Source: Oxalicibacterium solurbis (GTDB lineage: Bacteria > Pseudomonadota > Gammaproteobacteria > Burkholderiales > Burkholderiaceae_D). Taken from it: 64,000 nt of DNA. The position numbers and the translations under genes are program-made. The stretch is taken from contig NZ_BMDP01000002.1 of NCBI RefSeq assembly GCF_014635845.1, positions 248,001 to 312,000 on the forward strand, read 5' to 3'. This document shows, in pieces, positions 33,501-50,404 of the stretch; within the stretch, counting starts at the first letter, position 1; each line of letters opens with the position of its first letter. The notes under the pieces are model-generated. The model was not told the origin of the DNA. It worked only from the letters and a program-made list of their open reading frames with translations, and did not search any database.

Positions 33501-33935
33501 ATGCCACTGTCCGCCTCGTCCAGCCTTACCTATTATTCCCCTCCCGGTCCTCTGCACGCGATTCTGGTCGCCGGTTCCGTTTCGCTGTTTCTGGGCGCGC
33601 TGCTGAGCGATATCGCTTATTACAAGTCGTACGAGATCCAGTGGAGTAACTTCGCTTCCTGGCTGACTGCCGGTGCCTTGCTTTTCGGCGGACTGGCGCT
33701 GCTGTTTGCGCTTGTCAATCTCGTCACGGCGGACAGAAAGGCGGGGCAACCCGTCTGGTATGTGCTGCTGCTGGCAGTGACCTGGGTGCTCGGACTGATC
33801 AATGCCTTCCAGCATGCGAAGGATGCATGGGCGGTCATGCCGCTCGGTCTTGTGCTGTCGGTCATCGTCGCGGTGTTGAGCTGCGCGTCGGCCTGGATCG
33901 GATTGCGTGGCCCGCTCGTGGGAGGTGTGCGATGA
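33501..33935 (+). CDS. DUF2231 membrane protein
   Basis: A 144-residue inner-membrane protein with four predicted helices (HAILVAGSVSLFLGALLSDIAYY, FASWLTAGALLFGGLALLFALVNLV, VWYVLLLAVTWVLGLINAF, GLVLSVIVAVLSCASAWIGL), matching DUF2231. HAIL, SDIAYY, WSNFASWL and N.FQH.KDAW are family features; conserved histidines may bind heme, but this is not established. Start ATG at 33501 is set by AAGGAG. It overlaps the next gene by ATGA and is thus translationally coupled to the dehydrogenase-like lipoprotein, for which it could be a membrane electron-transfer partner. Confidence 0.8.
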   Translation: MPLSASSSLTYYSPPGPLHAILVAGSVSLFLGALLSDIAYYKSYEIQWSNFASWLTAGALLFGGLALLFALVNLVTADRKAGQPVWYVLLLAVTWVLGLINAFQHAKDAWAVMPLGLVLSVIVAVLSCASAWIGLRGPLVGGVR

Positions 33936-35224: not shown

Positions 35225-35244
35225 ATCCCGGGCCGGAGGAGCTT

Positions 35245-37401
35245 TTGTCGACGCAATCGATGTGCGGCCATTGCCGCGCAATGCAGAGCAATCGTGTCGA
35301 ACACTATGCTCTTGCATTCAAGCCCTCCTGTCCGCTCACGCTGCTTGCGCTGATTGCATCGCTGTCCACCGCGCATGCACAGGAATCGGCGTCTCCGTCA
35401 ACGCTACCGGAAATTGTCGTCAGCGCGAGCCGTTCCGAACAGAATCGCTTTGATGCGCCTGCTGCAATCGATGTCGTGCAGGTCGACGATTTCCGTGCGC
35501 AATCGCCGCTGGTCAACATGTCCGAATTGCTGGGAACGGTACCTGGTGTCCAGGTGCGCGAGCGGCAGAATTATGCGCAGGATTTGCAGATTTCGGTGCG
35601 CGGTTTCGGCACGCGTTCCACCTTTGGCGTTCGTGGCGTGCGCATCCTGGTCGATGGAATTCCGGCGACGATGCCGGATGGGCAAGGGCAGGCGTCGACC
35701 GCCAGCCTGTCATCCGCCAGCCGCATCGAAGTGTTGCGTGGGCCGATGGCGCAGTTGTACGGCAATGCCGCCGGCGGTGTGGTGCAAGTCTTCACCAGGG
35801 AGCCGCCGATGAAGCCTGAAGCATCGTTGTCGCTGGGAGCTGGTTCCGACGATCAACGCTTGTTTGGCGTTTCTGCCGGCGGCGGCAATGAAACGGTGGC
35901 CGGCTTCATCGATGCCAGCCAGTATTCGACCGACGGCTACCGCGATCACAGTGCCGCGCGACGCACCACCATCAACGCCAAGCTCGTGGCGCGGCCTTCG
36001 AGCGACACCAGGATCACCGCCATTCTCAACAGTTTCGATCAGCCCTTGTCGCAAGACCCGCTGGGGCTGACGCGCGCCGATTTCGAAAGTAATCCGCGTC
36101 AGGTCACACCGCGTGCCATCATGTTCGATACACGAAAAACGATCACGCAGCAGCAGATTGGCATCCTGCTCGAACAGCGCTTGGGCGACAACGATAGGTT
36201 GAGCGCCCGCGTATACGGCGGCACGCGCAAGGTATTCCAGTCCCTGGCGTTTCCCGGCGATGAGAATGTTCAAGCCGGCGGCATCATCGATCTGGATCGC
36301 GGTTACGGTGGCGTCGGCTTGAACTGGATGCACGAGACCAGGGTGAACGGCTTGCCGCTGAACTGGACGTTGGGTGTGGAAGCCGATTCCTTGAGCGAGC
36401 GTCGCCAGGGCTTCGTGAATAACGGTGGCACTCCGGGCGCGTTGCGTCGCGATGAAAACGATCATGCGAAAAATACCGACGTGTTTGCCCAGATTGACTG
36501 GACCTTCGCGCCGCAATGGCGCGCCACGGCCGGTGTGCGCATGAGCCGTGTCAGGCTGTCGGTCGACGACGATTACATCGTGCCGAATCCTGATCCCGCG
36601 TTAAACAATCCGGACGACAGCGGCAGCGTCGAATACAAGCAGACCAGCCCTGTTATCGGATTGGTATGGAGTGCGAACGACAACGTCAACATCTATGCCA
36701 ACATCGGCAAGGGTTTCGAAACGCCGACACTGGCGGAAGCTGCCTACCGTGCCGACGGCACTGGCCCCAATCTTGGTCTGCGCGCATCGACCAGCGTGCA
36801 GGCCGAGATCGGCACCAAGATCAAAAGCGGCCATCACCTGATGGATTTCGCCATATTCAATTCGCGCAGCAAGAATGAAATCGTGCAGGAGCAATCGCTG
36901 TTCGGCCGTGCCATCTTCCAGAATGTCGATGATGTCGAGCGTCGCGGCATCGAAGCGTCGTTACGCAGCGACTGGAACAGCCGGTTATCGACCAGCGTTG
37001 CCTACACATGGCTGGATGCGCGATTTGATAAATCGTTCAGCAGTGCCAACGGCACGATCGACTCCGGCAATCGACTTCCTGGCGCGCCGGAACACAGCCT
37101 GTACACGGAGTTGCAATACCGTTGGCAAAACGCCGTGACAACGGCAGTGGAGATGCGTGCCGACTCCAAGGCCTATGTCAATGACATCAACAGCGACGCT
37201 GCCGGCGGTTACGCCGTATTCAATCTGAGAGCCGGTTATGAATTCAATGCCGGCCCGGCGAAGATGATGCTGTTCGGTCGCATCGACAATGTATTCGACC
37301 GCGCCTATGCGGGATCGGTCATCGTCAACGATGGCAACCAGCGGTTCTTTGAACCTGCACCGGGGCGGCGCCTGTACGTAGGAATGCGGACACAGTTCTG
37401 A
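35245..37401 (+). CDS. pqqU: TonB-dependent receptor resembling the PQQ importer PqqU/YncD
   Basis: A ~718-residue outer-membrane receptor: signal sequence (LTLLALIASLSTAHAQ), plug domain and 22-strand barrel ending YVGMRTQF. Against E. coli YncD (PqqU) as remembered, the plug shares long blocks: RQNYAQDLQISVRGFGTRST, GVRGVRILVDGIPATMPDGQ, and in the barrel HGYRDHSGA-like DGYRDHSAARR, GFETPTLAEAAYRADG and YAGSVIVNDGNQRFFEPAPG. PqqU imports pyrroloquinoline quinone. The TTG at 35245 is chosen because GGAGGAG lies at 35235-35241; TTG at 35221 overlaps the upstream stop and lacks a site. Confidence 0.85.
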   Translation: MSTQSMCGHCRAMQSNRVEHYALAFKPSCPLTLLALIASLSTAHAQESASPSTLPEIVVSASRSEQNRFDAPAAIDVVQVDDFRAQSPLVNMSELLGTVPGVQVRERQNYAQDLQISVRGFGTRSTFGVRGVRILVDGIPATMPDGQGQASTASLSSASRIEVLRGPMAQLYGNAAGGVVQVFTREPPMKPEASLSLGAGSDDQRLFGVSAGGGNETVAGFIDASQYSTDGYRDHSAARRTTINAKLVARPSSDTRITAILNSFDQPLSQDPLGLTRADFESNPRQVTPRAIMFDTRKTITQQQIGILLEQRLGDNDRLSARVYGGTRKVFQSLAFPGDENVQAGGIIDLDRGYGGVGLNWMHETRVNGLPLNWTLGVEADSLSERRQGFVNNGGTPGALRRDENDHAKNTDVFAQIDWTFAPQWRATAGVRMSRVRLSVDDDYIVPNPDPALNNPDDSGSVEYKQTSPVIGLVWSANDNVNIYANIGKGFETPTLAEAAYRADGTGPNLGLRASTSVQAEIGTKIKSGHHLMDFAIFNSRSKNEIVQEQSLFGRAIFQNVDDVERRGIEASLRSDWNSRLSTSVAYTWLDARFDKSFSSANGTIDSGNRLPGAPEHSLYTELQYRWQNAVTTAVEMRADSKAYVNDINSDAAGGYAVFNLRAGYEFNAGPAKMMLFGRIDNVFDRAYAGSVIVNDGNQRFFEPAPGRRLYVGMRTQF

Positions 37402-37485: not shown

Positions 37486-40400
37486 TTAAGCGCTCGCCGG
37501 TGCGTCGGCCGGCGTATCGACTGATGCATTGGTTAATGCATCGGCCAGCACACGGGCGACATGCAGCGGTTGCTGTTGCGTGCCGTCCGTGATCTGGTGG
37601 CGGCAACTGGTGCCGTCGGCAACGAACAGCGTGCCTGCTTCCGCCTTGCGGATCGCCGGGAACAGCGACAGTTCGCCCATCGCCTGCGATGCTTCGTAAT
37701 GCTCGGCTTCGTAGCCGAAACTGCCAGCCATGCCGCAGCACGAGGATTCGATGACGGAGACTTCCAGTTGCGGAATCCATTTCAGCACCGTCTGCACCGG
37801 CCGCACGGCATCGAAGGCTTTCTGGTGGCAATGGCCATGCACCATCGCTTGCGACGCGGCCAGCGGTTTCAGGTTCAGCGCCAGCCGTCCGGCTGCATGT
37901 TCGTGTACCAGGAACTCCTCGAACAGGAAGGCGCTGTCGGCCAGCTTCCTAGCTTCGTCGCCGTAACCGTAGCCGAGAAATTCGTCGCGCAGCGACAGCA
38001 GGCAAGACGGTTCCAGTCCGACGATGGCGACACCGCGCTTGACGTAGGGCATCAGTGCATCCAGCGTGCGGCGCGCTTCTTCCTTCGCTTCCTTCACCAT
38101 GCCGGCCGACAGGAAGGTGCGGCCGCAGCATAGCGGACGCTCGCCTTCGCGCATGTTGAAATGCACGGTATAGCCGGCCGCTTCCAGCACGCGCTGTGCG
38201 GCACGCGCGTTTTCCGGTTCCATGCTGTTGTTGAAGGTATCGACGAACAGCAGAACTTCCTTGTCGCCGTCGCCGGTTTGCGCTGCATGAGTTGTCGTAT
38301 TGCTGCCGTCGAAGAACGGGTGCACGAAGCGTGGGAACAGGCGTTGCGGCGCGAGGCCGAGGCGTCGCTTGATCCAGCCGGTGCCGGGCAGTTTTTCCGC
38401 GGCGGCCAGCAAGCCGCCGATGCGCGCCGCCTGCGCTGCATAGCGCGGCAGGAAGCCGACCAGCTTATCGCGCAGCGTGTGCCCATGGCGATCGGCCCAG
38501 GCGGCGCGCGCCTCGATCTTGAAGCGTGCCATATCGACGCCGGTGGGGCAGTCGCGCTTGCAACCCTTGCACGAGACGCACAGGTCCAGCGTCGCTTTTA
38601 CGTCCGGATCGGCGAGGCCGTCGCTGCCGAGCTGGCCCGATACGGCGAGGCGCAACGTGTTGGCGCGGCCGCGCGTCAGATGCTGTTCGTCCTTCGTGAT
38701 GCGATAGCTGGGGCACATCGTGTCGGCGTCGAACTTGCGGCAGTGGCCGTTGTTGTTGCACATCTCGACCGCCTTTGCGAGGCCGCCGCTCAGATCGTCG
38801 CCGCTGCCGGGCGCGGATTCCTCGCCGCTGACCGGATCGCGTTTGACGTTCCATGCCGACCAGTCCAGCTTGGGTTCGATTTGCAGTTCGCGATAGCCGG
38901 GCGCGAAGCGGAAATTGCTTTTCTCGTCCATCTTCGGCGGCCGCACGATCTTGTCCGGATTGAAGCGGTTGTCCGGATCGAACAATTGCTTGATCTCGCC
39001 GAACGCGCGATTCAGTTGCGGGCCGTATTGCCATGCCACCCATTCGCCGCGGCACAGGCCGTCGCCGTGTTCGCCGGAATAGGCGCCCTTGTATTCGCGC
39101 ACCAGTGCAGCCGCTTCTTCGGCGATGCCGCGCATGCGCACCGCGCCGTCGCGCCGCATGTCGAGAATCGGACGCACGTGCAGCGTGCCGACACTGGCGT
39201 GCGCGTACCACGTGCCTTTTGTGCCGAACCGTGCGAACACCTCGGTCAGTCTTGACGTGTATTCGGCCAGATGTTCGAGCGGCACAGCGCAATCCTCGAT
39301 GAAGGAGACCGGTTTTCCGTCGCCCTTCATGCTCATCATGATGTTCAGGCCGGCCTTGCGCACATCCCACAGCGCCTTCTGTTCTGCGGCATCGGTCATG
39401 CCGACGATCAGGTCGGGCAGGTTCAGGTCGCGCATCAGGTCGTTCAGCGCTTCCAGTCGTTCGGTGAGAACGGTCTTGTCGTCGCCGGAGAACTCCACCA
39501 GCAGCATCGCCTGCGGATCGCCGATCAATGCCTTGCGGATAACGGGACGGAAGGACGGATTGTTCAGCGACAGATCGATCATCGTGCGATCGACCAGCTC
39601 GACCGCAGTCGGCCCCAGCTTGACGATGTGTTGCGACGAATCCATCGCCTGATAGAAAGTCGGGAAATTGATGACGCCCAGCACCTTGTTTTTCGGCAGC
39701 GGCACGAGCTTCAGCGTGATCTGCCGGCTGTAGGCCAGCGTGCCTTCGGAGCCGACCAGCAGATGTGCAAGATTGGCCGAGCCATCGTCGGTGTAGGCGC
39801 GCGGATTCTGGCAGTCGAACAGGTCGATGTTGTAGCCGGCGACGCGGCGCAGCACTTTCGGCACGCGTTCGACGATCTCGTCGTGTTCGCGTTGCGCGAT
39901 CTGCTGTACCTGCTGCACGATCTGCTGCAGGCGCGGCGTCTGCGCCATGCGCTCCAGTGTCTCGAAGCGGGCTTGCGTGCCGTCGGCGAGAACTGCGTCG
40001 ATACCCAGCACGTTGTGCACCATGTTGCCGTATTCGATCGAGCGCGAGCCGCAGGAGTTGTTGCCGGTCATACCGCCTATCGTGCATTGCGCGCCGGTGG
40101 AGACGTCGACCGGAAACCACAGGCCGTGCGGTTTCAGCCACGCGTTCAGGTGATCGAGCACGAGACCCGGTTCGACGGTGATGGTGCGCGCGACCGGATC
40201 GAAATCGATGATGTTGTTCAGCCACTTGCTGTTGTCGATGACCAGCGCTTCGCCGACGGTCTGGCCGCACTGGCTGGTGCCGCCGCCGCGCGCCAGCAGC
40301 GGGATTTTTTCCGAACGCGCGATGTCGAGGCACAGCAGCAGGTCGTCCTGGTCGTGCGGCACGACGACGCCGACCGGCAGGATCTGGTAAATCGATGCAT

Positions 40401-40551
40401 CGGTCGCATAGCGGCCGCGATCGGCGCGGCTGAACAGCACGTCGCCGCGCAGTTCGGCAGCTAGCCGGCGCGCCAGCGGGCTGCCGTCGGTGCGCTTGCC
40501 GGGCGCGAAGTGGATGGGCTTGACGGTCATCGTTCCGGACATTCTTTGCAT
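37486..40551 (-). CDS. FAD-linked oxidase / (Fe-S) D-2-hydroxyacid dehydrogenase (YdiJ-like)
   Basis: A ~1021-residue three-part enzyme. The N-terminal FAD_binding_4 domain has RGGGTSQCGQTVGEALVIDNS and STGAQCTIGGMTGNNSCGSRSIEYGNM; the FAD-oxidase C-terminal domain follows; then a 4Fe-4S ferredoxin region (CNNNGHCRKFD...MCPSY and CVSCKGCKRDCPTGVD), and CCG domains including ESSCCGMAGSFGYE. The architecture is that of YdiJ-type D-2-hydroxyglutarate/D-lactate dehydrogenases and GlcD-GlcF fusions. Probably it passes electrons from a D-2-hydroxyacid to the quinone pool. It is the third gene of the GntR-linked aminotransferase operon. Start could be 40551, 40542 or 40530. Confidence 0.88.
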   Translation of the reverse strand: MQRMSGTMTVKPIHFAPGKRTDGSPLARRLAAELRGDVLFSRADRGRYATDASIYQILPVGVVVPHDQDDLLLCLDIARSEKIPLLARGGGTSQCGQTVGEALVIDNSKWLNNIIDFDPVARTITVEPGLVLDHLNAWLKPHGLWFPVDVSTGAQCTIGGMTGNNSCGSRSIEYGNMVHNVLGIDAVLADGTQARFETLERMAQTPRLQQIVQQVQQIAQREHDEIVERVPKVLRRVAGYNIDLFDCQNPRAYTDDGSANLAHLLVGSEGTLAYSRQITLKLVPLPKNKVLGVINFPTFYQAMDSSQHIVKLGPTAVELVDRTMIDLSLNNPSFRPVIRKALIGDPQAMLLVEFSGDDKTVLTERLEALNDLMRDLNLPDLIVGMTDAAEQKALWDVRKAGLNIMMSMKGDGKPVSFIEDCAVPLEHLAEYTSRLTEVFARFGTKGTWYAHASVGTLHVRPILDMRRDGAVRMRGIAEEAAALVREYKGAYSGEHGDGLCRGEWVAWQYGPQLNRAFGEIKQLFDPDNRFNPDKIVRPPKMDEKSNFRFAPGYRELQIEPKLDWSAWNVKRDPVSGEESAPGSGDDLSGGLAKAVEMCNNNGHCRKFDADTMCPSYRITKDEQHLTRGRANTLRLAVSGQLGSDGLADPDVKATLDLCVSCKGCKRDCPTGVDMARFKIEARAAWADRHGHTLRDKLVGFLPRYAAQAARIGGLLAAAEKLPGTGWIKRRLGLAPQRLFPRFVHPFFDGSNTTTHAAQTGDGDKEVLLFVDTFNNSMEPENARAAQRVLEAAGYTVHFNMREGERPLCCGRTFLSAGMVKEAKEEARRTLDALMPYVKRGVAIVGLEPSCLLSLRDEFLGYGYGDEARKLADSAFLFEEFLVHEHAAGRLALNLKPLAASQAMVHGHCHQKAFDAVRPVQTVLKWIPQLEVSVIESSCCGMAGSFGYEAEHYEASQAMGELSLFPAIRKAEAGTLFVADGTSCRHQITDGTQQQPLHVARVLADALTNASVDTPADAPASA

Positions 40552-40618
40552 GGCGTCGCGAGAAGTTGTGAGGGTTGTACCGGCATCAGGTCGCAATCAA
40601 ATCAGCATCAGACGAGCA

Positions 40619-41383
40619 TTAAACGAGCATCAAGCGCACCGGCGGCAGATTGCCGACGCGCCCGGTCACGGTTTCCACCGTGTCGGGAAAGTGCATGCCG
40701 ACGTAGGAACCGGTCGTGATCGGGTGGCCGGCGGGAAGCGGTACGCCTTGTGTGCTGCAATGGTTGACGATCCACGGCAGCAGGCGGCGCGGATCGCCGG
40801 CCGGATTGGTGCCGGGGCCGATAAAGGCCGTGCGTTCGTCGATGTGCAATTCGACGTCGGGGGCGGCGAAGGAAAAATCGGGATCGACGGGAACCATCAC
40901 GCCGAGGATCAGCGCGCCGTGATTCTGCATGTCGGCCAGCTGGATCAGCTTGCCGGTATCGGGCCAGCCGGCGACGCGGCTGCTGACGATCTCGATCGAT
41001 GCAGCCATCAGCGCCAGGCTTTCCATGACTTCTTCGTCGCTGTAGCCGTCGGGGCGCGGCTCGAACGTGCGCGAGAAGGCGAACGCAAGTTCGAGTTCCA
41101 GGCCCAGCACGGAAAAATCGCGGCGTGCCAGATAGGCCGGTTCCGGCACCACGCAATCCGACGGCAGGGCGGCACCGTGGCGCGGCGCCAGTGGCGATTT
41201 GGCGCCGACCTTCCAGCCGGCGATGCGTTCGCCGCGCGCCGCGATCAACGCATGCTGGATCGCGTAAGCATCCGCCGCGCACGCCGGCTCCAGTCCGGCG
41301 GGTACCGCTACGGTTCTGCCATCGCGATGTGCCTGCAACAGCAGGGTGCAGAGCGCGTCGTCGATGGCGGGGTTGGCGGACAT
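40619..41383 (-). CDS. 2-keto-4-pentenoate hydratase family enzyme (MhpD/HpcG-like)
   Basis: A 254-residue member of the 2-oxo-4-ene acid hydratase / fumarylacetoacetase-related family. Landmarks: RIAGWKVGAKSPLAPR, PEPAYLARRDFSVLGLELELAFAF (metal-binding acidic residues), EVMESLALMAASIEIVSSRVAGW and GALILGVMVP, with GTNPAGDPRRLLPWIVNH near the end. These enzymes hydrate 2-oxo-pent-4-enoate type products of meta-cleavage, or decarboxylate oxalocrotonate. No ring-cleavage genes surround it, so an alternative substrate is likely here. It lies between the class V aminotransferase and the FAD/Fe-S oxidase, with ~60-bp gaps. Confidence 0.8.
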   Translation of the reverse strand: MSANPAIDDALCTLLLQAHRDGRTVAVPAGLEPACAADAYAIQHALIAARGERIAGWKVGAKSPLAPRHGAALPSDCVVPEPAYLARRDFSVLGLELELAFAFSRTFEPRPDGYSDEEVMESLALMAASIEIVSSRVAGWPDTGKLIQLADMQNHGALILGVMVPVDPDFSFAAPDVELHIDERTAFIGPGTNPAGDPRRLLPWIVNHCSTQGVPLPAGHPITTGSYVGMHFPDTVETVTGRVGNLPPVRLMLV

Positions 41384-41444
41384 GCTGGCGTCGGCTGGCG
41401 TGGTCGTTGCGCGATATATCGTCGATGATCCCGTCGACGTTCGA

Positions 41445-42662
41445 TCAGGCGGCGACTTTCAATGCGGGCACTTTCTGTCCGGCGAGGAAATCCATCGCTG
41501 CGGCGACACCGCTGCCGGCGACCTTGATGCCGGCCAGCTTCAGGCCCATTTCGCAACCGGCCAGCGTGGCCATCAGCGTCAGGTCGTTGGCTTCGCCTAG
41601 GTGGCCGATGCGGAACATGCGGCCTTTCATCTTGCCGAGGCCGGTACCGAGCGACATGTCGAAACGTTCGTAGATCAGCTTGCGTACGGCATCGGCGTCG
41701 ATGCCTTCCGGCGTCATCACACCGGTCAGTACCGGTGAATAGACGGCTGGATCGGCGCACTGGATTTCCAGTCCCCAGGCCTTGACTGCCAGACGGCAGG
41801 CAGCAGCGAGGCGGTTGTGGCGTGCGAACACGTTGTCCAGGCCTTCGCCGAGGATCATGTCGAGCGCTTCATGCAGGCCGTACAGCAGGTTGGTATTCGG
41901 CGTGTACGGCCAGTAGCCGCTCTTGTTCATTTCGATGATTTCGCCCCAGGCCCAGAACGAGCGCGGCAGCTTGGCGTTCTTGCTGGCTTCGATCGCCTTT
42001 TGCGACGGCACGTTGAAGCTGATGCCCGGCGGCAGCATCAGGCCTTTCTGCGAACCGGAAACGGTGACGTCCACGCCCCATTCGTCGTGGCGATAGTCGG
42101 CGGAAGCGAGGCCGGAAATCGTATCGACCATCAGCAGTGCCGGATGGTCGGCGGCATCGATCGCGCGGCGCACCGACGCGATGTCGGAGGTGACGCCGGT
42201 CGACGTTTCGTTATGCACGACGCAGACGGCCTTGATCGAGTGGTTCTTGTCCTCGCGCAGGCGGGCTTCGATCATGTCTGCCTGTACGCCGCGACGCCAG
42301 CCTTCGATGCCGGGCAGGCCGATGAATTCCGGTTTCAGGGTGAGGGCTTCTGCCATCTTTTTCCACAACGTGGCGAAATGGCCGGTTTCATACATCAGCA
42401 CGTGATCGCCGGGCGACAGCGTGTTTGACAGTGCGGCTTCCCAGGCACCGGTGCCGGATGCCGGATAGATGACGACCGGCTGGTTCGTCTTGAAAATTTT
42501 CTTGATGCCGGCCAGTACGTGCAGTCCCAGCGCGCCGAACTCCGGGCCGCGATGGTCGATGGTCGGGTAGCTCATCGCACGCAGGATGCGATCCGGCACC
42601 GGGCTGGGGCCCGGAATCTGCAGGAAATGGCGGCCGGCTGGATGAAAATCGAGCTTCAACAT
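41445..42662 (-). CDS. Class V aminotransferase (serine/alanine-aspartate-glyoxylate type)
   Basis: A 405-residue PLP aminotransferase of the serine-glyoxylate / alanine-glyoxylate family. Key parts: GPSPVPDRILRAM, IDHRGPEF, the ASGTGAWEAALSN cofactor loop, VVHNETSTGV, MVDTISGL and the PLP lysine K206 in VSGSQKGLMLPPG. Such enzymes transfer amino groups from serine, alanine or aspartate to glyoxylate. It is first in a minus-strand operon with a hydratase-family enzyme and an FAD/Fe-S oxidase. AGGAG precedes the ATG. A promoter and putative GntR operator lie just upstream (separate entries). Confidence 0.87.
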   Translation of the reverse strand: MLKLDFHPAGRHFLQIPGPSPVPDRILRAMSYPTIDHRGPEFGALGLHVLAGIKKIFKTNQPVVIYPASGTGAWEAALSNTLSPGDHVLMYETGHFATLWKKMAEALTLKPEFIGLPGIEGWRRGVQADMIEARLREDKNHSIKAVCVVHNETSTGVTSDIASVRRAIDAADHPALLMVDTISGLASADYRHDEWGVDVTVSGSQKGLMLPPGISFNVPSQKAIEASKNAKLPRSFWAWGEIIEMNKSGYWPYTPNTNLLYGLHEALDMILGEGLDNVFARHNRLAAACRLAVKAWGLEIQCADPAVYSPVLTGVMTPEGIDADAVRKLIYERFDMSLGTGLGKMKGRMFRIGHLGEANDLTLMATLAGCEMGLKLAGIKVAGSGVAAAMDFLAGQKVPALKVAA

Positions 42663-42691
42663 GGGGGTCTCCTAAGGAACGGCGTACAATT

Positions 42692-42711
42692 GAATATTGA
42701 ATACAAAATAC
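42692..42711. promoter_or_regulatory. Putative GntR operator, copy 1
   Basis: GAATATTGAATACAAAATAC, whose first 15 bases are identical to the copy at 47056. It has the partial palindrome TTG-NATA-CAA typical of GntR/FCD operators, overlaps the end of the -10 box of the aminotransferase promoter and covers its expected start point. Confidence 0.7.
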
Positions 42712-42738
42712 TGTAGCAGCCGAATCAGGACAAGTAAA
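42710..42738 (-). promoter_or_regulatory. Probable aminotransferase operon promoter
   Basis: On the minus strand TTTACT (42738-42733), a 17-bp spacer and TACAGT (42715-42710), each four of six consensus bases. The putative operator follows directly, suggesting repression by occlusion of the start site. Confidence 0.5.
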
Positions 42739-42920
42739 GGCTTTCTTGCCGCTGAATTGGCCGATAAGCGGAAATGTCGGCAATCGCAGGAAATTGTTGT
42801 TTTCATGGCTGGATTGCCATGGTTCCGTCATCAACCGCACGAAAGCGGATTGCCGGTGGAGCAATAGGTTGTAGCAGGGTAATTGGATTAAAATACGCCA
42901 AATCGAGAATCGGACTTAGC

Positions 42921-43649
42921 ATGCAAAATACATTGATGAGTAGCGATAACGGCGGCGCTGCGCCGGCACTTCCGCGTCTGGAACGCCAGCGTCTGCACGA
43001 TACGGTGGTCGAACATCTGCAGAACCTGATCATCGAAGGCGTGCTGGCGCCGGGAATGAAATTGAACGAACGCGAGGTATGCGAGCGCCTGGGCATTTCG
43101 CGCACGCCGTTGCGCGAGGCGATGAAGGTGCTGGCGTCGGAAGGGTTGATCGATATCGAACCGAATCGCGGCGCCTTCGTTTCGAAGATGACGGATACCG
43201 AGATCTGGGAAGCCTTCGAGATGATGAGCGGCCTGGAAGCGCTGTCCGGTGAACTGGCGGCGGAACGCATCTCGCCGGCCGAGATCGCCGTTATCAAGGA
43301 GCTGCACGAAGCGATGATCGTCTGCCGCGCGCAGAACGATCTGCCGGGCTACTACAGCCGCAACCAGACGATTCACAACAAGATCAACGAAGCGGCGCGC
43401 AATTCGGTGCTGCGCCAGATCTATCTGTCGATCAATCGTCGCTTGCTGGCGCTGCGCTTCAAGTCGAACTTCCGCGAAAGCAAATGGGATCGCGCGATCC
43501 ATGAGCATGAAGAAATGATCGAGGCGCTGGAAACGCGCGACGGCAAGCGGCTGGCCGGCATCCTGCGCCAGCATTTGCTGGACAAGCGCGATTCGGTGAT
43601 GGCCGATCTGCGCGAGGCCGCGGCGAAGGCGGCAGCAGCGAAGGAATAA
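42921..43649 (+). CDS. GntR-family transcriptional regulator (FCD domain)
   Basis: A 242-residue regulator with an N-terminal winged HTH (DTVVEHLQNLIIEGVLAPGMKLNEREVCERLGISRTPLREAMKVLASEGLIDIEPNRGAFV) and a C-terminal FCD ligand-binding domain (residues ~90-230: EAFEMMSGLEALSGELAAE..., FHxxI-type NQTIHNKINEAARN, HEHEEMIEALETRDG). Metal/ligand-binding histidines and acidic residues of FCD are present. It lies divergently from the aminotransferase operon and convergent to tctA, so probably controls both, repressing until a carboxylate inducer binds. The ATG at 42921 is chosen over the longer upstream frame because the HTH starts soon after; ATG at 42936 is possible. Confidence 0.88.
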   Translation: MQNTLMSSDNGGAAPALPRLERQRLHDTVVEHLQNLIIEGVLAPGMKLNEREVCERLGISRTPLREAMKVLASEGLIDIEPNRGAFVSKMTDTEIWEAFEMMSGLEALSGELAAERISPAEIAVIKELHEAMIVCRAQNDLPGYYSRNQTIHNKINEAARNSVLRQIYLSINRRLLALRFKSNFRESKWDRAIHEHEEMIEALETRDGKRLAGILRQHLLDKRDSVMADLREAAAKAAAAKE

Positions 43650-43717
43650 GCCTGCCAGCATTCGCACAGCGACGCATGCTCGATGAGCTTCAGCAAATAA
43701 CGATAGCGTCGACAACA

Positions 43718-43745
43718 AAAAAGCCCGGAACGATCCGGGCTTTTT
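43718..43745. terminator. Bidirectional terminator between gntR and tctA
   Basis: AAAAAGCCCGGA - ACGA - TCCGGGCTTTTT; A- and T-runs on both sides make it effective for both convergent genes. Confidence 0.92.
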
Positions 43746-43779
43746 CTTTTGCTGCGTACTTCTTCAATCGGGTTGTTCG

Positions 43780-45300
43780 TTATGCGTTGGCATGCGATTT
43801 GTTGAGAAAGCGCTGGCGCAGGATATTGGACAGTCCGCTGATCAGCGGCCACAACAGAGCGATCATGCCCAGCGTCATGATGGTGCCGACCAGGCCGTTG
43901 CTCCAGAAGATGCCGAGTGCGCCCTTGGAGCCGACCATCGTCTGGCGGAACGCATCTTCCGCACGATCGCCCAGCACCAGTGCCAGCACCAGCGGCGCCA
44001 GCGGATAGTTGAGCTTCTTGAAGATGTAGCCGATCACGCCGAAGACCACCATCAGCCAGATGTCGAACTGCGCGTTGTGTACCGTGTAGGCACCGATCGC
44101 GCAGACCACCATGATGGACGGGGCGATGATCGAGAACGGAATGCGCAGGATGGCGGCGAACAGCGGCACCGTCGACAGCACCACCAGCAGGCCGGCGATA
44201 TTGCCGAGGTACATGCTGGCGATCAGGCCCCAGACGAATTCCTTCTGCTCGACGAACAGCATCGGTCCTGGCTGCAGGCCCCAGATCATCAGGCCGCCCA
44301 GTAGCACGGCGGCGGTTGCCGAACCGGGAATGCCGAGCGCCAGCATCGGCAGCAGGGCGCTGGTGCCGGCTGCATGCGCAGCGGTTTCCGGTGCCAGCAC
44401 GCCTTCCATGTTGCCCTTGCCGAACGAATCCGGATCGCGCGAGAAACGTTTTGCCATGCCGTAGCCCATGAAGGATGCGGCGGTGGCACCACCCGGCGTG
44501 ATGCCGAGCCAGCAGCCGATGACGGACGAGCGCAGCAGCGTCATCCAGTAGCGTGGCAGCATGGCCCAGGTCTTCAGCACGACTTTCAGGTCGATCTTGG
44601 CTTTCTTGCCCTTGAACGCCAGACCTTCTTCCATCGTCAGCAGGATCTCGCTGATGCCGAACAGGCCGATCACGGCGACCAGGAAATCGAAGCCGCGCAA
44701 AAGCTCGGGGAAGTCGTAGGTCATGCGCAGCTGGCCGGAGACGGTATCCATGCCGACCGCTGCCAGCAGGAAGCCGACGCACATCGAGATGATGATCTTG
44801 GCCTTCGGTTCCTTGCCCATGCCGATGAAGCTGCAGAAGGTGAGGAAGTAGACGGCGAAGAATTCCGGTGGCCCGAAGCGCAACGCAAACTTCGCCACCA
44901 GCGGCGCGAGGAAGGTGATGATGACGACACCGAACAGCGCGCCGATGCAGGAGCCGGTGAAAGCGCTGGTCAGCGCCTGCCCGGCCTTGCCCTGTTGCGC
45001 CAGCGGATAGCCGTCGAAGGTTGTCGCGACCGACCACGCCTCACCGGGAATGTTGAACAGCACCGACGTGATGGCACCGCCGAACAATGCGCCCCAGTAG
45101 ATGCACGACAGCAGGATGATGGCCGACGTCGGATGCATCGAAAACGTCAGCGGCAGCAGGATGGCGACGCCGTTCGGGCCGCCGAGACCGGGCAGCACGC
45201 CGACGACGATGCCGAGCAAAATGCCGATGAACATCAGGCCGATGTTCTGAAAGCTGAGAACGTGGCCGAAGCCGGTCATGAGCGAGTTGAGTTCTTCCAT
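43780..45300 (-). CDS. tctA: Tripartite tricarboxylate transporter, large membrane subunit TctA
   Basis: A 506-residue, ~11-helix protein of the TctA family: VGVLPGLGGPNGVAILLPLTFSM, IYWGALFGGAITSVLFNIPGEAWSVATTFDGYPLAQQGKAGQAL and GITPGGATAASFMGYGMAKRF contain the conserved glycine-rich motifs of both repeats. With TctB and the periplasmic TctC it imports a carboxylate using an ion gradient. Order tctC-tctB-tctA on the minus strand, tctA last. Confidence 0.93.
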   Translation of the reverse strand: MEELNSLMTGFGHVLSFQNIGLMFIGILLGIVVGVLPGLGGPNGVAILLPLTFSMHPTSAIILLSCIYWGALFGGAITSVLFNIPGEAWSVATTFDGYPLAQQGKAGQALTSAFTGSCIGALFGVVIITFLAPLVAKFALRFGPPEFFAVYFLTFCSFIGMGKEPKAKIIISMCVGFLLAAVGMDTVSGQLRMTYDFPELLRGFDFLVAVIGLFGISEILLTMEEGLAFKGKKAKIDLKVVLKTWAMLPRYWMTLLRSSVIGCWLGITPGGATAASFMGYGMAKRFSRDPDSFGKGNMEGVLAPETAAHAAGTSALLPMLALGIPGSATAAVLLGGLMIWGLQPGPMLFVEQKEFVWGLIASMYLGNIAGLLVVLSTVPLFAAILRIPFSIIAPSIMVVCAIGAYTVHNAQFDIWLMVVFGVIGYIFKKLNYPLAPLVLALVLGDRAEDAFRQTMVGSKGALGIFWSNGLVGTIMTLGMIALLWPLISGLSNILRQRFLNKSHANA

Positions 45301-45310
45301 GCGTATCTCC

Positions 45311-45829
45311 TCAATAGCCCAGCCAACTTTCCAGCGGGCCCTTGGGCAGCGGCACGCGGAACTGGAGTTCGAAAATGTAGAAAAAGGCGATCATCGTCAG
45401 CGCGGATACGCCGATCGATTTCCACCAGGAGAACTTGCCCAGCACGTACATGAAGACGCCGATGAAGATGGCCGACGACACGTAGATGCCCAGCCACTTG
45501 ATGCCGAACACGTAGACGATCAGTGGCAGCAGGATCACCGCCACCAGTTTCGCCTGAGCGATTTCCAGGAAAGGTGTGCGGTCGTTGTCGCGCAATGCGT
45601 GAAATACCACGAAGCCGCTGGCGATCAGGATGATGATGCCGAGCCGCATCGGGAAATAGCCGGGTTCGGGACCGTAGGAGCTCCAGCCTGAACCGAGCTG
45701 GTAATTGCTCCACATGGTAATGAGGGAAGCCACCGCGAGTGCGAGTGCGACGATGAGTTCCATCGCGCGGACTGTGATGACGGTGCGAGAGGAGACCCGC
45801 TCTTCCGCGGTATGTTCAGGGTGATTCAT
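45311..45829 (-). CDS. tctB: Tripartite tricarboxylate transporter, small membrane subunit TctB
   Basis: A 172-residue protein with four hydrophobic segments (AMELIVALALAVASLITMWSNY, GIIILIASGFVVFHAL, LVAVILLPLIVYVFGIKWLGIYVSSAIFIGVFMYVL, SIGVSALTMIAFFYIFEL), as in TctB. It lies between tctC and tctA with short gaps (10 and 59 bp). N terminus is acidic and His-containing without known meaning. Confidence 0.88.
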   Translation of the reverse strand: MNHPEHTAEERVSSRTVITVRAMELIVALALAVASLITMWSNYQLGSGWSSYGPEPGYFPMRLGIIILIASGFVVFHALRDNDRTPFLEIAQAKLVAVILLPLIVYVFGIKWLGIYVSSAIFIGVFMYVLGKFSWWKSIGVSALTMIAFFYIFELQFRVPLPKGPLESWLGY

Positions 45830-45888
45830 GTTCGCGTTCCTGATGGGGACGCGGCAGGCACCGGCGTGCCGCGTCCGGGTGAAAAGAA

Positions 45889-46893
45889 TTACTTCTTCTT
45901 GGCGAGGAAGCCGGCCTCCTGCATGATGGTCTGGTGCAGTTTTTCATCCTTGACCAGGAAATCCGTCAGCGCGTTGCCGGAGATGAATGCAGGCGTCAGC
46001 GCATTGCGTTCCAGATACGCTTTCCATTCCGGCGTCTCGGTGACTTTTTTCATCAGATCGACGTAGAACTGCGTCTGTTCCGGCTTGACGCCGCCCGGCA
46101 ACAGGAAGATGCGGATCATTTCGTAGCTGACGTCGAGCCCCTTTTCCTTGCAGGTCGGGATGTCGGACCAGGCTTGTGTCGACGTCACTTTTGCCGTGTA
46201 GGAGAGACGTTTTTCGGCAAACACGCACAGTGCAGTGTGTTCGCCTGCGCGCCATTGCGAGACGGATTCGGAAGGATTGTTGGTATTGGAATCGATGTGG
46301 CCGCCGGAGAGCTGCGTGGCCGCCTCGCCGCCGCCTTTATACGGAATGTAGAGGAACTTGGCGCCGGTCTGCTTCTCGATCATCGTCGTGATCATGTGAT
46401 CTTCGCGCTTGGAGCTGGTGCCGCCCATCTTGAAGGTATCCGGCTTCTTCTTGACGGCGTCGATGTAGTCCATCGGCGTCTTGTAGCCGGCCTGTGAATT
46501 TGTCCACAGTACGAAGGCATCCATGGCGATGACCGCAACCGGCGTCAGATCGCGCCAGTGGAACGGCAGGTTGGTCGTCAGCGGTGTCGTGTACAGCGAA
46601 GACGAAGTCACGATGATCTTGTTGGGATCGCCCTGCGAAGCCTTCATGTCCAGCAGACCTTCGGCGCCGCTGGCACCCGCCTTGTTGGTCACGATGATCG
46701 GCTGCTTCATCAGGTTGTGCTTGGCGATGATGCCCTGGATGGAGCGTGCCATCTGGTCGGAAGCACCGCCTGCGCTGAACGGCACGACGAGTTCGACCGG
46801 TTTGGTCGGCTCCCATGCCGATGCGCTGAGTGCCCAGCACATCGTGGCGGCGAAGAGGCCGAGTTTGATCGGGCGGGATGTTTTTTTCTGCAT
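45889..46893 (-). CDS. tctC: Tripartite tricarboxylate transporter substrate-binding protein (Bug/TctC)
   Basis: A 334-residue periplasmic receptor with a signal peptide (LGLFAATMCWALSASA) and the Bug fold: PVELVVPFSAGGASDQMAR, VTNKAGASGAEGLLDM, and FLYIPYKGGGEAATQLSGGHID. It binds the imported carboxylate; Bug proteins are too diverse to predict the ligand. A 267-bp intergenic region separates it from the divergent aldolase-like gene and holds an operator copy. Confidence 0.9.
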   Translation of the reverse strand: MQKKTSRPIKLGLFAATMCWALSASAWEPTKPVELVVPFSAGGASDQMARSIQGIIAKHNLMKQPIIVTNKAGASGAEGLLDMKASQGDPNKIIVTSSSLYTTPLTTNLPFHWRDLTPVAVIAMDAFVLWTNSQAGYKTPMDYIDAVKKKPDTFKMGGTSSKREDHMITTMIEKQTGAKFLYIPYKGGGEAATQLSGGHIDSNTNNPSESVSQWRAGEHTALCVFAEKRLSYTAKVTSTQAWSDIPTCKEKGLDVSYEMIRIFLLPGGVKPEQTQFYVDLMKKVTETPEWKAYLERNALTPAFISGNALTDFLVKDEKLHQTIMQEAGFLAKKK

Positions 46894-47055
46894 GATGCTG
46901 TCTCCTTTGTGTGGGCGAACCCTTTGACGTCACCGTTTCGGACGCACGGTGTTGCCGTCCGGATCGGCTGTGGATAAAGCCTCGGCCTCTGCGTGCCTTC
47001 AGCCTTATGCATTCATGAAAACAATTTCGTTACCGCTATTCCAAATGGTCATTTA

Positions 47056-47075
47056 GAATATTGAATACAATATAC
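47056..47075. promoter_or_regulatory. Putative GntR operator, copy 2
   Basis: GAATATTGAATACAATATAC, containing the better palindrome ATATTG-AATA-CAATAT. It differs from copy 1 by a single base. It lies 163 bp upstream of tctC and 86 bp upstream of the aldolase-like gene. A second small inverted repeat TTGAC-N6-GTCAA follows at 47079-47094. Confidence 0.7.
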
Positions 47076-47160
47076 ACTTTGACGGAAATGTCAATCGCCG
47101 AGCCGATGGTTTTTGCGGCGACGATATTCCTCTATATACATGGCGCAATCGGGAGAATGC

Positions 47161-48315
47161 ATGGCCGAAGACTTGGGGCTGTACGTACCGCCAGCGGCGC
47201 GGATCGGCGATCCGCTGCAACGGGTGGGCACGCCGTCGCTGGTACTGGATCTGGATGCTTTTGAATTCAATATAGAGCGCATGGCTGCGCTGGCTGCGGC
47301 GCACGGCATCGCGCTGCGGCCGCACGCCAAGGCGCACAAGTCGACGGCAATTGCCGCGGCTCAGCTGGCGGCCGGTGCCGTCGGCGTCTGTTGTCAAAAG
47401 CTCAGCGAAGTCTATCCGTTCGTGCGGCAGGGCATACGCGATATTCATTTGAGCAACGAAGTCGTCGGCGCCGACAAGATGGCGATGGCAGCCGAGCTGG
47501 CGCGTCATGCGCGGTTGAGCATCTGCGCCGACCACGTCGCGCAGATCGATGCGCTCGGCGCGGCCGCCGCGCAGGCGGGCACGCGCATCACGGTGCTGCC
47601 GGAAGTGGATATCGGCCAGGGCCGTTGCGGCGTGACCGGCAGCGACGAACTGATGGCGCTGGTCGAACGTATTGCGCGCTACGGCAGCCTGCGTTTCGGT
47701 GGGCTGCAGGCGTATCACGGCGGTATTCAGCATCTGGCGACATGGAACGAGCGGCGCGATGCCGCCCTGCGTTCGGCCGAGAAGGCGGCGCAGCACGTGC
47801 GCCATCTGGAAGCGCGCGGCATCGCTTGCTCGGTGGTGACAGGTGGTGGCACCGGCACCGTTGAATTCGATGTCGAAAGCGGCGTGTTCACCGAGGTGCA
47901 GCCGGGTTCTTATGTCTTCATGGATGGCCATTACGGTTCCAACGAGTGGGGCGGCACGCTGAAGCTGCAGCATAGCCTGTTCATTGCCACAACAGTGATG
48001 AGCACGGCCAAGCACGGCATGGCGGTGTGCGATGTCGGCCTGAAGGGCGTGGCGGTCGATTCCGGATTGCCGCGCGTGCGCCCCGGCGACGATGACGCTC
48101 TGCGCTACACGGCGGCCAACGACGAACACGGCATCCTGCGCATCGCCGACGGCGACGAGGATGACGGTGATGTGCGTGACCGCCTGGGCGAACGCCTGAT
48201 GCTGATTCCCGGCCACTGCGATCCGACGGCCAATCTGTACCGGCAATACGTCTGCTATCGCGGCGATACCGTGGAAGCGCTGTGGGACATCGATGCCAGC
48301 GGCCTGAGCCGTTGA
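47161..48315 (+). CDS. D-threonine aldolase / D-3-hydroxyaspartate aldolase-like PLP enzyme
   Basis: A 384-residue fold-type III PLP enzyme of the alanine racemase N-terminal/D-serine dehydratase-like family. TPSLVLDLDAFEFNIERM and RPHAKAHKS (PLP lysine K57) mark the barrel; the C-terminal PGHCDPT gives the metal-binding H352/D354 of D-threonine aldolase and hydroxyaspartate aldolase. Such enzymes cleave D-beta-hydroxy amino acids to glycine and an aldehyde or glyoxylate. Start ATG 47161 is set by GGGAGA; earlier ATG at 47140 is in frame. First gene of the plus-strand operon and near an operator copy. Confidence 0.83.
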   Translation: MAEDLGLYVPPAARIGDPLQRVGTPSLVLDLDAFEFNIERMAALAAAHGIALRPHAKAHKSTAIAAAQLAAGAVGVCCQKLSEVYPFVRQGIRDIHLSNEVVGADKMAMAAELARHARLSICADHVAQIDALGAAAAQAGTRITVLPEVDIGQGRCGVTGSDELMALVERIARYGSLRFGGLQAYHGGIQHLATWNERRDAALRSAEKAAQHVRHLEARGIACSVVTGGGTGTVEFDVESGVFTEVQPGSYVFMDGHYGSNEWGGTLKLQHSLFIATTVMSTAKHGMAVCDVGLKGVAVDSGLPRVRPGDDDALRYTAANDEHGILRIADGDEDDGDVRDRLGERLMLIPGHCDPTANLYRQYVCYRGDTVEALWDIDASGLSR

Positions 48316-48365
48316 ACCGAGCGTGCTGTTGAATTGAGCTACTGCGGCAAGAAAAGGAGCAGAGG

Positions 48366-49157
48366 ATGAGCGAGCAAGACAATACGCAAGGCAGCGTACA
48401 TCTGACGATCGTCGACGGCATTGCCGCCGTCGTGTTCGATCGGCCGCAGGCGCGCAATGCGATGACGTGGACGATGTACGAGCAACTGGGCGAGATCTGC
48501 GAACGGCTGCGTGGTGAGCGCGCCGTGCGTGCCGTCACCTTCCGTGGCGTGGGCGGCGAAGCCTTCGTTGCCGGCACCGACATCGCGCAGTTCCGCGATT
48601 TCCGTTCGGGCGAGGACGGTATTGCTTACGAGCGCACCGTCAACGAACGCATCGCGCAGGTCGAATCGTTGCCGATGCCGACACTGGCCATCGTCGAAGG
48701 CTGGGCCACCGGCGGCGGGCTGGCGATCGCGACTGCCTGCGATTTCCGTATCGCCACGCCGGATGCACGCTTCGGCCTGCCGATCGCGCGCACGCTGGGC
48801 AACTGCATCTCGATGGCAAACATGGCGCGCGTGATGGCGGCCTTCGGCATCAATCGTGCCAAGCGCATGCTGCTGCTGGCGGAGAATCTGCCGGCCGACG
48901 AATTGCTGGCGGCTGGCTACCTGACCGCAGTGGTGCCGCCGGCCGAACTGGAGGCGACGGCGGCATCGTTGTGCAGCAAGCTGGCAGCGCATGCGCCGAT
49001 CACGATGCGGGCGTCGAAGGAAGCGATCAGCCGCCTGATCCAGTCCGATCTGCCGGACGGCAGCGACCTGATCCGCGCCTGCTACGGCAGCCGCGATTTC
49101 CATGAAGGGATCGAAGCCTTTCTTGCCAAGCGGCGTCCTGCATGGAGCGGCGAATGA
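48366..49157 (+). CDS. Crotonase-fold (enoyl-CoA hydratase/isomerase-like) protein with altered active site
   Basis: A 263-residue crotonase-superfamily protein: FDRPQARNAMTWTMYEQL, AFVAGTDIAQF (oxyanion hole) and VEGWATGGGLAIATACDFRIATPDARFGLPIARTLG. Aligned by eye to rat enoyl-CoA hydratase, the positions of Glu144 and Glu164 are Ala120 and Ile140, so the normal hydratase acid/base pair is missing. It may be an isomerase, a hydrolase or another crotonase activity on a CoA ester. AGGAG precedes the ATG. It overlaps the CoA-transferase gene by four bases. Confidence 0.82.
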   Translation: MSEQDNTQGSVHLTIVDGIAAVVFDRPQARNAMTWTMYEQLGEICERLRGERAVRAVTFRGVGGEAFVAGTDIAQFRDFRSGEDGIAYERTVNERIAQVESLPMPTLAIVEGWATGGGLAIATACDFRIATPDARFGLPIARTLGNCISMANMARVMAAFGINRAKRMLLLAENLPADELLAAGYLTAVVPPAELEATAASLCSKLAAHAPITMRASKEAISRLIQSDLPDGSDLIRACYGSRDFHEGIEAFLAKRRPAWSGE

Positions 49158-50404
49158 GCGCGGCGAACGAAAAACGCAGCGGCCCGCTGGCCGGCATGCG
49201 CGTCATCGAACTGGCGCACATCATGTCCGGCCCGATCTGCGGCATGATGCTGGCCGACATGGGCGCCGATGTGATCAAGGTCGAGAAGACGCCGGACGGC
49301 GACGATTCCCGCCGATTCGCGCCGCTGCTGGCGTGCGGCGAATCGGCGTCGTTCATGGTCGTCAACCGCAACAAACGCGGCATCGGCCTGAACCTGAAGA
49401 CCGAAGGCGGGCGCGAGGTATTGCGCCGTCTATTGAAGGATGCCGATGTCGTCATCGAAAACTACCGCGCCGGCACGATGGAAAAATTCGGCCTCGGCTA
49501 CGACGTGCTGAAGGAAATGAATCCGGGCCTGATCTACTGTTCGATCTCCGGCTTTGGCCGCACTGGCCCGTATGCGGACAAGGGCGGATTCGACCTGATC
49601 GCGCAGGGCATGAGCGGCATGATGAGCATGACCGGGGAGGAAGGACAGGCACCGATCAAGGCCGGCTCACCGGTGGCCGACATCAATGCCGGCATCCTTG
49701 CCGCGCTCGGCATCGCTGCTGCGTATGCGAACAAGCTGCAAACCGGGCAAGGGCAGATCGTCGATACTTCGCTGTTCGAGGCGGCGCTGCAGCAGATGTA
49801 CTGGCCGGCCGCCAACTATTTTGCCGACGGTACCATCCTGCCGAAGATGGGTTCGGCCAACTCCACCAGCGCGCCGTATCAGGTCTTCCGTACACAGGAT
49901 GGCTGGATCAACATCGGTGCCGCCAACCAGAGCAATTACGAACGGATGCTGCAGGTGGTGCAGATGCCGGAGCTGGCCGGCGATCCGCGCTTTGCCACCA
50001 ATGCGGGCCGCATGGAAAATCGCGCAGCGCTGGTCGAACTGCTGACGGGCAAGCTGGTCACGCGCACGACCGACGAGTGGTTGCGCGAATTCGACGCGGT
50101 CGGCTTGCCAGTCGGTCCGGTGCTGGATATTTCGCAGGCACTGGCGCATGAACAAGCGCTGGCGCGCGGCATGACGGTTTCCAGCGAACATCCGCTGGCT
50201 GGCGCCGTTGGCGGTATCGGCTTGCCGATCCGTTTTTCGAATGGCGCTGCCGGCGAGGAAACACGCCGCCCGCCGCCGCTGCTGGGCGAACATACGCGCG
50301 AAGTGTTGCACGATCTGGGTTACGCCGAAGAAGAGATCGCGGCGTTGCAGCAACAGCAGGCGATCCTCGTCGGCCCGGCCGTTGCCATGCGTCATCACGG
50401 TTAG
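49154..50404 (+). CDS. CaiB/BaiF family (class III) CoA-transferase
   Basis: A 416-residue class III CoA-transferase. Hallmarks: GPLAGMRVIELAHIMSGPICGMMLADMGADVIKVE, LNLKTEGGREVLRRLLKDADVVIENYRAGTMEKFGLG, SGFGRTGPY, and AGSPVADINAG with the probable nucleophile D176. These enzymes move CoA onto carboxylic acids (carnitine, oxalate, mesaconate, itaconate and others) through an anhydride intermediate. It is coupled to the crotonase-like gene (ATGA overlap) and thus probably activates the acid imported by TctCBA. Confidence 0.88.
   Translation: MSAANEKRSGPLAGMRVIELAHIMSGPICGMMLADMGADVIKVEKTPDGDDSRRFAPLLACGESASFMVVNRNKRGIGLNLKTEGGREVLRRLLKDADVVIENYRAGTMEKFGLGYDVLKEMNPGLIYCSISGFGRTGPYADKGGFDLIAQGMSGMMSMTGEEGQAPIKAGSPVADINAGILAALGIAAAYANKLQTGQGQIVDTSLFEAALQQMYWPAANYFADGTILPKMGSANSTSAPYQVFRTQDGWINIGAANQSNYERMLQVVQMPELAGDPRFATNAGRMENRAALVELLTGKLVTRTTDEWLREFDAVGLPVGPVLDISQALAHEQALARGMTVSSEHPLAGAVGGIGLPIRFSNGAAGEETRRPPPLLGEHTREVLHDLGYAEEEIAALQQQQAILVGPAVAMRHHG

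Follow-up and report, generated by a model that had tools for sequence, protein, structure and literature searches.

A GntR-linked gene cluster of Oxalicibacterium solurbis as a candidate catabolic regulon at the glyoxylate/glycine node

Introduction

Which compound is broken down by a gene set in which a GntR regulator and a carboxylate transporter stand among a class V aminotransferase, an FAD/Fe-S oxidase, and an aldolase? The question is raised by ten genes of Oxalicibacterium solurbis (genome G000; 3.04 Mb, seven contigs), within a stretch of 64,000 nucleotides (contig C2, NZ_BMDP01000002.1, positions 248001-312000) that we call the window. The genes encode an FAD-linked D-2-hydroxyacid oxidase (FADox), a 2-keto-4-pentenoate hydratase-like protein (Hyd), a class V aminotransferase (AT), a GntR regulator of the FCD subfamily, the transporter TctCBA, a pyridoxal phosphate (PLP) enzyme of the D-threonine-aldolase type (DTA), a crotonase (Ech), and a class III CoA-transferase (CoAT). 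All ten had been named in a preliminary description made from the sequence alone, and all were found in place, with open frames and in the families named. Among the papers listed by literature searches that leave out most subscription journals, none gives an account of this gene set, and the accessible part of PMC8305402 has nothing on this cluster. We argue below that the cluster is real and conserved, is probably a GntR-controlled catabolic regulon, and may serve the glyoxylate/glycine node.

Results

One operator-like site in two divergent promoters

Two of the three gene blocks, AT-Hyd-FADox and tctCBA, read leftward and the third, DTA-Ech-CoAT, reads rightward; gntR also reads rightward and diverges from AT, so that two divergent promoter regions, at about 42663-42923 (AT/gntR) and 46894-47112 (tctC/DTA), can serve all ten genes. 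Comparison of 12 AT/GntR and 11 TctC/DTA promoter regions, those of the window included, yielded one common stretch. Nearly the same 20-base sequence is present once in each region of the window, as GAATATTGAATACAAAATAC in the AT/gntR promoter (site 1) and as GAATATTGAATACAATATAC in the tctC/DTA promoter (site 2). With up to three mismatches allowed, these two putative sites are the sole matches within the window, and 100 shuffles gave none. An 18-base form, at the same tolerance, matched only these two places in the whole 3.04-Mb genome, one of them on both strands. The site is exact in the TctC/DTA promoter of all 10 other loci fetched from the genus, and the AT promoter carries the site within two mismatches in 10/10. 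The two genomes of the genus that lack AT, DTA, and FADox (G004 and G012) have matches with two to three mismatches only, and a few additional three-mismatch matches occur in further genomes (8/13 genus genomes scanned).

Across a wider set of loci, the 250 bp upstream of AT contain the palindromic core TTGNATNCAA in 71/107 cases, a count from which L023, L053, L055, any locus that lacks AT, and any with fewer than 200 bases upstream are omitted; the background is 35/2140 random 250-bp windows (1.6%). Where a divergent GntR gene is adjacent, the core precedes AT in 70 of 74 loci. We infer that the GntR/FCD protein reads this operator-like site and controls both divergent promoters. The earlier proposal of one probable regulon thus gains strong sequence support from a site common to both promoters, genus-wide, and from synteny.

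A conserved core with variable additions

AT was found at 83% identity or more in 11/13 genus genomes and at 24% only in G004 and G012 (60 relatives searched). DTA (31 genomes searched) and FADox (13 searched) are present in the same 11 genomes; in G004 and G012 they are absent or represented by distant paralogues only. The 10 other genus loci all contain FADox, AT, GntR, TctA, and DTA, together with Hyd in two and Ech+CoAT in one. We then considered 80 named loci, the best 80 of 590 confirmed AT matches, many of which end at contig ends and all of which have flanks limited to 10 kb. AT is accompanied by FADox (at least 50% identity) in 66 and by GntR (at least 40%) in 58, an arrangement that is more than chance, and by both in 52. 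Neither bhcB nor bhcD was found near AT in any of the 80. Transporters differ (MFS carrier in 20, TctA in 5), as do the optional genes (Hyd-like in 22, Ech+CoAT in 15). A TRAP-type set, with DctP and DctM assigned by family and the small subunit by position, is the alternative transporter in L039, L042, L073, L086, and others. Limimaricola has GntR-FADox-AT-TRAP-Ech-CoAT, Acidiphilium has GntR-CoAT-Ech-symporter-AT without FADox, and Caballeronia M1242 has every part of the set, its carrier being of the MFS type; the core is also found in Halomonas, Polynucleobacter, and Alphaproteobacteria.

The conserved core of this module is GntR, the class V aminotransferase, and the FAD/Fe-S oxidase; lineages differ in the type of transporter and in the aldolase, hydratase, and crotonase/CoA-transferase. 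The preliminary description would have been refuted by orthologues that are never clustered elsewhere, a case that the synteny excludes; it had also placed crotonase, CoA-transferase, and hydratase in the regulon, and these do lie in the cluster, as optional rather than core members. The annotated records examined of the AT/FADox/GntR core in these lineages bear generic names only; one substrate identification would annotate all of them. Four Polynucleobacter loci (L118, L122, L126, and L127) consist of GntR, FADox, AT, and a glcG-like gene only, with no module transporter or CoA genes adjoining, possibly a minimal form.

DTA is of the D-threonine-aldolase type

Among solved structures, DTA scores highest against the D-threonine aldolase of Alcaligenes xylosoxidans (AxDTA, PDB 4v15; 396 bits, 51% identity), ahead of BhcC (6qkb; 276) and D-threo-3-hydroxyaspartate dehydratase (3wqg; 126). 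The alignment keeps Lys59 and Arg157 of AxDTA, which we take to be active-site residues (Lys59 presumably the PLP lysine), as well as Tyr187, His193, His347, and Asp349, i.e. the D-threonine-aldolase active site. In AxDTA, His347 and Asp349 are metal ligands and His193 is the base, according to the accessible text of PMC4401734. Judged by sequence, DTA is thus an enzyme of the D-threonine-aldolase type with its active-site residues intact. It had been described as D-hydroxyaspartate/threonine aldolase-like, of which the threonine-aldolase part stands; structure scores and residues argue against a hydroxyaspartate aldolase proper.

In a tree of 37 rows, several branches of which are long, 16 rows make up a clade, supported at 100/100, of the module-linked aldolases from the genus, G035, and Caballeronia; they represent 15 genes, that of L027 contributing two rows. 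AxDTA and some non-module copies join this clade in a wider 22-row group (92/99), and BhcC stands apart. AxDTA thus shares the wider group, whereas the module-linked aldolases are a separate clade within it. Ten stretches round non-module copies (L139-L148) contained no AT, no CoA-transferase/crotonase pair, and no marker genes of C2 metabolism; a CoA-transferase relative at 35% was found in L148 and an oxidase relative at 25% in L144. The natural job of D-threonine aldolase is largely unknown, and the link found here between one clade and a defined regulon, whose site is given above, opens the question of its natural role to testing.

Two other settings of related enzymes were observed. On a Polaromonas plasmid (L137:2676-7759), a D-threonine-aldolase-type gene lies beside genes for D-serine ammonia-lyase, a TctC-type receptor, and an amidase, a set that looks like one for D-amino-acid use. 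On a Paraburkholderia caribensis plasmid (L055:3775-9886), another DSD1-type enzyme is encoded with a class V aminotransferase, diaminopropionate ammonia-lyase, and a class II aldolase, which is a different pathway.

AT and its neighbors point to glyoxylate as a possible substrate

AT is closest to glyoxylate-using class V enzymes. It resembles serine-glyoxylate and BhcA-type aminotransferases in its scores against PDB 6pk1, a serine-glyoxylate aminotransferase (379 bits), and the NCBIfam BhcA model (454.4 bits), although the latter is below the cut-off of 650. AT is not simply a renamed BhcA, since on a Tateyamaria omphalii plasmid (L150:1790-16505) GntR-FADox-AT-TRAP adjoins a complete bhcDCBA-bhcR set with its own BhcA. 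The other side of that module is abutted by a malonyl-CoA synthase/TRAP cluster.

Elsewhere, gcl, hyi, and glxR lie near AT in Pseudomonas abietaniphila (L061), glcD and glcE lie near the module in four Halomonas/Vreelandella loci (L073, L076, L083, and L092), three of which also have glcC, and glcG-like genes adjoin AT in Polynucleobacter and others. AT relatives at 76-81% (L098, L100, L107, L109, and L155) are found in hydantoinase/amidase/racemase clusters, and purine genes lie close to those at 63% (L153 and L154), together with a hydroxyisourate hydrolase gene in L153. The glyoxylate or glycine node, previously a guess, moves to moderate support through these neighbor genes and the marker count given below: we have moderate confidence that AT would act on glyoxylate and tie the module to glyoxylate and glycine. 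Two further observations concern these neighborhoods. Amidase, hydantoinase, or Asp/Glu-hydantoin racemase genes and FAH-type or TRAP genes stand beside the AT relatives of L098, L100, L107, L109, L153, and L155. In Vreelandella (L073:712-14231), glcD, a glcC-like GntR, GntR, a GlcG/HbpS-like gene, TRAP, crotonase, CoA-transferase, AT, and FADox all lie within 14 kb.

FADox shares a motif with YdiJ but not with GlcD

The nearest NCBIfam model of FADox is YdiJ (495.5 bits), whose cut-off of 1350 is not reached. With Escherichia coli YdiJ, a D-2-hydroxyglutarate dehydrogenase, FADox shares an FAD domain fused to Fe-S/CCG domains and an LHVRP stretch, but only 28% identity. GlcD has MHPLI at this place, and we read LHVRP as a hint that the substrate may bear a second carboxylate. 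Identity to GlcD is 25-31%, in two pieces, and the glcD model gave 190.5 bits (cut-off 567.9). Like the glcCDEFG operon, which it adjoins in some loci, the module combines a GntR/FCD regulator with FAD and Fe-S chemistry; unlike it, the module oxidase is one fused polypeptide and the cluster has no GlcE subunit, so FADox does not qualify as a GlcDEF glycolate oxidase.

A tentative pathway

The two common sites, the synteny, the intact aldolase residues, the AT relatives and neighbor genes, the YdiJ-like motif, and the presence of gcl lead us to a tentative reading, in our judgment quite possible though short of likely, in which the whole cluster forms a single catabolic regulon under GntR(FCD) control and supplies the glyoxylate/glycine node. 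GntR would control both divergent promoters and respond to a carboxylate or its product. TctCBA would import a small hydroxylated dicarboxylate or hydroxyamino acid. FADox would oxidize a D-2-hydroxy dicarboxylate to the 2-oxo acid, passing electrons onward via its Fe-S domain, and DTA would cut a (2R)-3-hydroxy amino acid, at best guess 3-hydroxy-D-aspartate, with release of glycine and an aldehyde, at best guess glyoxylate. AT would convert glyoxylate to glycine with an L-amino acid as donor, surplus glyoxylate would go to the glyoxylate carboligase encoded elsewhere in the genome, and Hyd and the CoAT/Ech pair would be optional side entries. Our best guess for the substrate is a D-2-hydroxy dicarboxylate and/or a 3-hydroxy-D-amino acid. 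Pfam and NCBIfam scans revealed no aldehyde dehydrogenase among the cluster proteins, which makes glyoxylate, which AT might use, the simplest aldehyde product. Malate synthase G is absent in 6/6 genomes searched; malate synthase A was not searched for.

A narrower version is more doubtful. The DTA clade of the genus, G035, and Caballeronia might be a dedicated step that cleaves a 3-hydroxy-D-amino acid, probably 3-hydroxy-D-aspartate, to glycine and glyoxylate, the latter being aminated on the spot, all under GntR. This would be a 3-hydroxyaspartate route without dehydratase or iminosuccinate reductase and, if true, would show a natural role for a D-threonine-aldolase clade.

Several points weigh against a regulon feeding the glyoxylate/glycine node. 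Outside this genus, G035, and Caballeronia, DTA does not lie near AT, and just 1/80 named loci has the two together. Class V aminotransferases make L-amino acids and D-threonine-type aldolases take D-amino acids, so that AT and DTA are not obviously consecutive. The genome encodes gcl on contig 4 (present in 6/6 genomes searched), and AT is hence not required for glyoxylate disposal. In L156, the LHVRP stretch is replaced by VHARI in a YdiJ-like protein, encoded beside a DUF1338 gene. Finally, the enrichment of C2-metabolism marker genes is weak: with thresholds chosen after the neighbor genes were seen, they occur in 16/118 loci compared with 1/40 random stretches (one-sided Fisher test, p 0.039), and counting ureide and glycine-cleavage markers as well gives 22/118 and 3/40 (p 0.073). 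The 118 loci include five with an AT relative at 49-57% only and classes beyond the window's order, and the 40 controls come from eight genomes (pool of eleven) of that order. The 16 positive loci represent about seven lineages, which makes the count support, not proof.

Alternative explanations

That two or more independent catabolic units happen to adjoin is unlikely. Ech+CoAT, Hyd, and DTA have indeed been gained or lost independently of the core, and DTA relatives occur elsewhere without it, but the same rare site is found in both promoters, and AT, DTA, and FADox are jointly present or absent in 13/13 genus genomes. We also consider it improbable that this is a glycolate module, with FADox as a one-polypeptide glycolate oxidase, AT converting glyoxylate to glycine, and the other genes as extras. 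The glcC, glcD, glcE, and glcG-like neighbors noted above would suit it, as would the 31% identity of GntR to E. coli GlcC. However, glycolate oxidation appears to be provided for elsewhere: contig 4 carries, besides gcl, a glcE at 53% flanked by glcD- and glcF-like frames, and glcE was found in 16/16 genomes searched, with or without the module, including G004 and G012. The LHVRP motif also speaks against GlcD-like function. The available text of PMC3308952, on strains of module content not established, reports that Polynucleobacter QLW-P1DMWA-1 did not assimilate glycolate and that only 2/19 further strains did; three Cupriavidus strains also did. Glycolate, one of the candidate acids originally listed, is thus disfavored by the genes elsewhere in the genome and the YdiJ-like motif.

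A tartrate route, rather improbable in our view, would use FADox, AT, and DTA in series, from a tartrate isomer to oxaloglycolate, then to 3-hydroxyaspartate, and on to glycine and glyoxylate. The dicarboxylate-type motif of FADox fits, and two Caballeronia plasmids have an annotated tartrate dehydrogenase about 5 kb from DTA (L022:18053-19138 and L054:17864-18961), albeit with several unrelated genes in between. Against it stand the stereochemistry, as AT should give the L form whereas the D form is the one used by the aldolase, and the fact that most loci with FADox and AT have no DTA. Oxidation by FADox at the alpha carbon of a carboxymethyl ether or N-substituted glycine, with Hyd splitting the hemiacetal or hemiaminal to glyoxylate for amination by AT, would explain why AT and FAH-type proteins also occur together in hydantoin/purine clusters, in which one would expect derivatives of glyoxylate. 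It is very unlikely, given that Hyd is optional (22/80 named loci, 2/10 other genus loci) and that the literature searched yielded no precedent for this activity. Least credible is the β-hydroxyaspartate cycle (bhcABCD of Paracoccus and roseobacters), complete or partial, with which the cluster shares BhcA-like and BhcC-like proteins and the glyoxylate/glycine theme. Both models remain far below their curated cut-offs (BhcA as given above; BhcC 371.6 bits, cut-off 690), and the cluster lacks BhcB and BhcD, adds an oxidase, a Tct transporter, and CoA enzymes, and has GntR in place of BhcR, which is IclR-type according to the portion of PMC11323563 at hand. The Tateyamaria module, moreover, adjoins a separate, complete bhcDCBA. 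In the whole O. solurbis genome, BhcD has no match, and BhcB, represented by a reference from an annotated plasmid bhc cluster, matches best at 31% to a 529-aa frame, whose size leads us to read it as threonine deaminase, plus one weaker match. A complete cycle is thereby ruled out; the reported lack of bhcB and bhcD in the window extends to the genome, and the statement that no known complete pathway fits holds for this cycle.

Optional enzymes and transporter

Ech belongs to the PRK06144 subfamily (380 bits, cut-off 272). The catalytic residues of classical enoyl-CoA hydratases are two glutamates, and at their positions in 5z7r Ech has Ala and Ile; it is thus probably not a plain hydratase. 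The crotonases of L036, L073, L090, L108, and L110 show the same double loss, and the L041 type keeps one glutamate. A hydroxycinnamoyl-CoA-lyase type was considered for Ech and dropped once the glutamate positions had been correctly assigned. CoAT is a class III CoA-transferase by Pfam, and it reached no substrate-named or equivalog NCBIfam model. A crotonase accompanies it in 15/15 named loci with CoAT; Caballeronia grimmiae L022 has CoAT without crotonase. Hyd has no Pfam match and aligns weakly with NCBIfam dmpE (E 3.1e-9, below cut-off) and MhpD (1sv6/2wqt, E 2.4e-6), keeping the Glu-x-Glu...Glu residues of MhpD that we take to be metal ligands. TctA, TctB, and TctC are adjacent and each above its Pfam cut-off, which identifies a tripartite tricarboxylate transporter. 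The nearest solved structures of the window TctC and of the L073 TRAP receptor indicated no single ligand.

Coordinates and surroundings

Table 1. Genes and putative operator-like sites of the cluster (window coordinates)
Feature	Position	Strand	Basis or remark
FADox, FAD-linked D-2-hydroxyacid oxidase fused to 4Fe-4S and CCG domains	37486..40596	-	Pfam FAD_binding_4, FAD-oxidase_C, Fer4_8, CCG
Hyd, 2-keto-4-pentenoate hydratase-like (FAH superfamily), optional	40619..41383	-	NCBIfam dmpE and MhpD alignment, weak
AT, class V aminotransferase, BhcA-like	41445..42662	-	NCBIfam BhcA model, PDB 6pk1
Operator-like site 1	42692..42711	+	AT/gntR divergent promoter; putative, from sequence
GntR regulator, FCD subfamily	42924..43649	+	Pfam GntR, FCD; start uncertain, frame open from 42774
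TctA	43780..45300	-	Pfam TctA, 498.5 bits
TctB	45311..45829	-	Pfam TctB, 78.2 bits
TctC, periplasmic receptor	45889..46893	-	Pfam TctC, 113.3 bits
Operator-like site 2	47056..47075	+	tctC/DTA divergent promoter; putative, from sequence
DTA, D-threonine-aldolase-type PLP enzyme	47113..48315	+	PDB 4v15, 395.7 bits
Ech, crotonase family, without both hydratase glutamates, optional	48366..49157	+	Pfam ECH_1; PRK06144 subfamily
CoAT, class III CoA-transferase, optional	49142..50404	+	Pfam CoA_transf_3, 425 bits (cut-off 23.3)

The start of DTA is uncertain, and ATG at 47140, 47157, or 47161 may be the true one. Just outside the cluster, at 33827-37401, the window encodes PQQ-type sugar dehydrogenase-like and TonB-receptor-like proteins, judged by eye without a family search. 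Near its beginning, at 476-852 on the - strand, lies a tmRNA gene with the tag ANDESYALAA.

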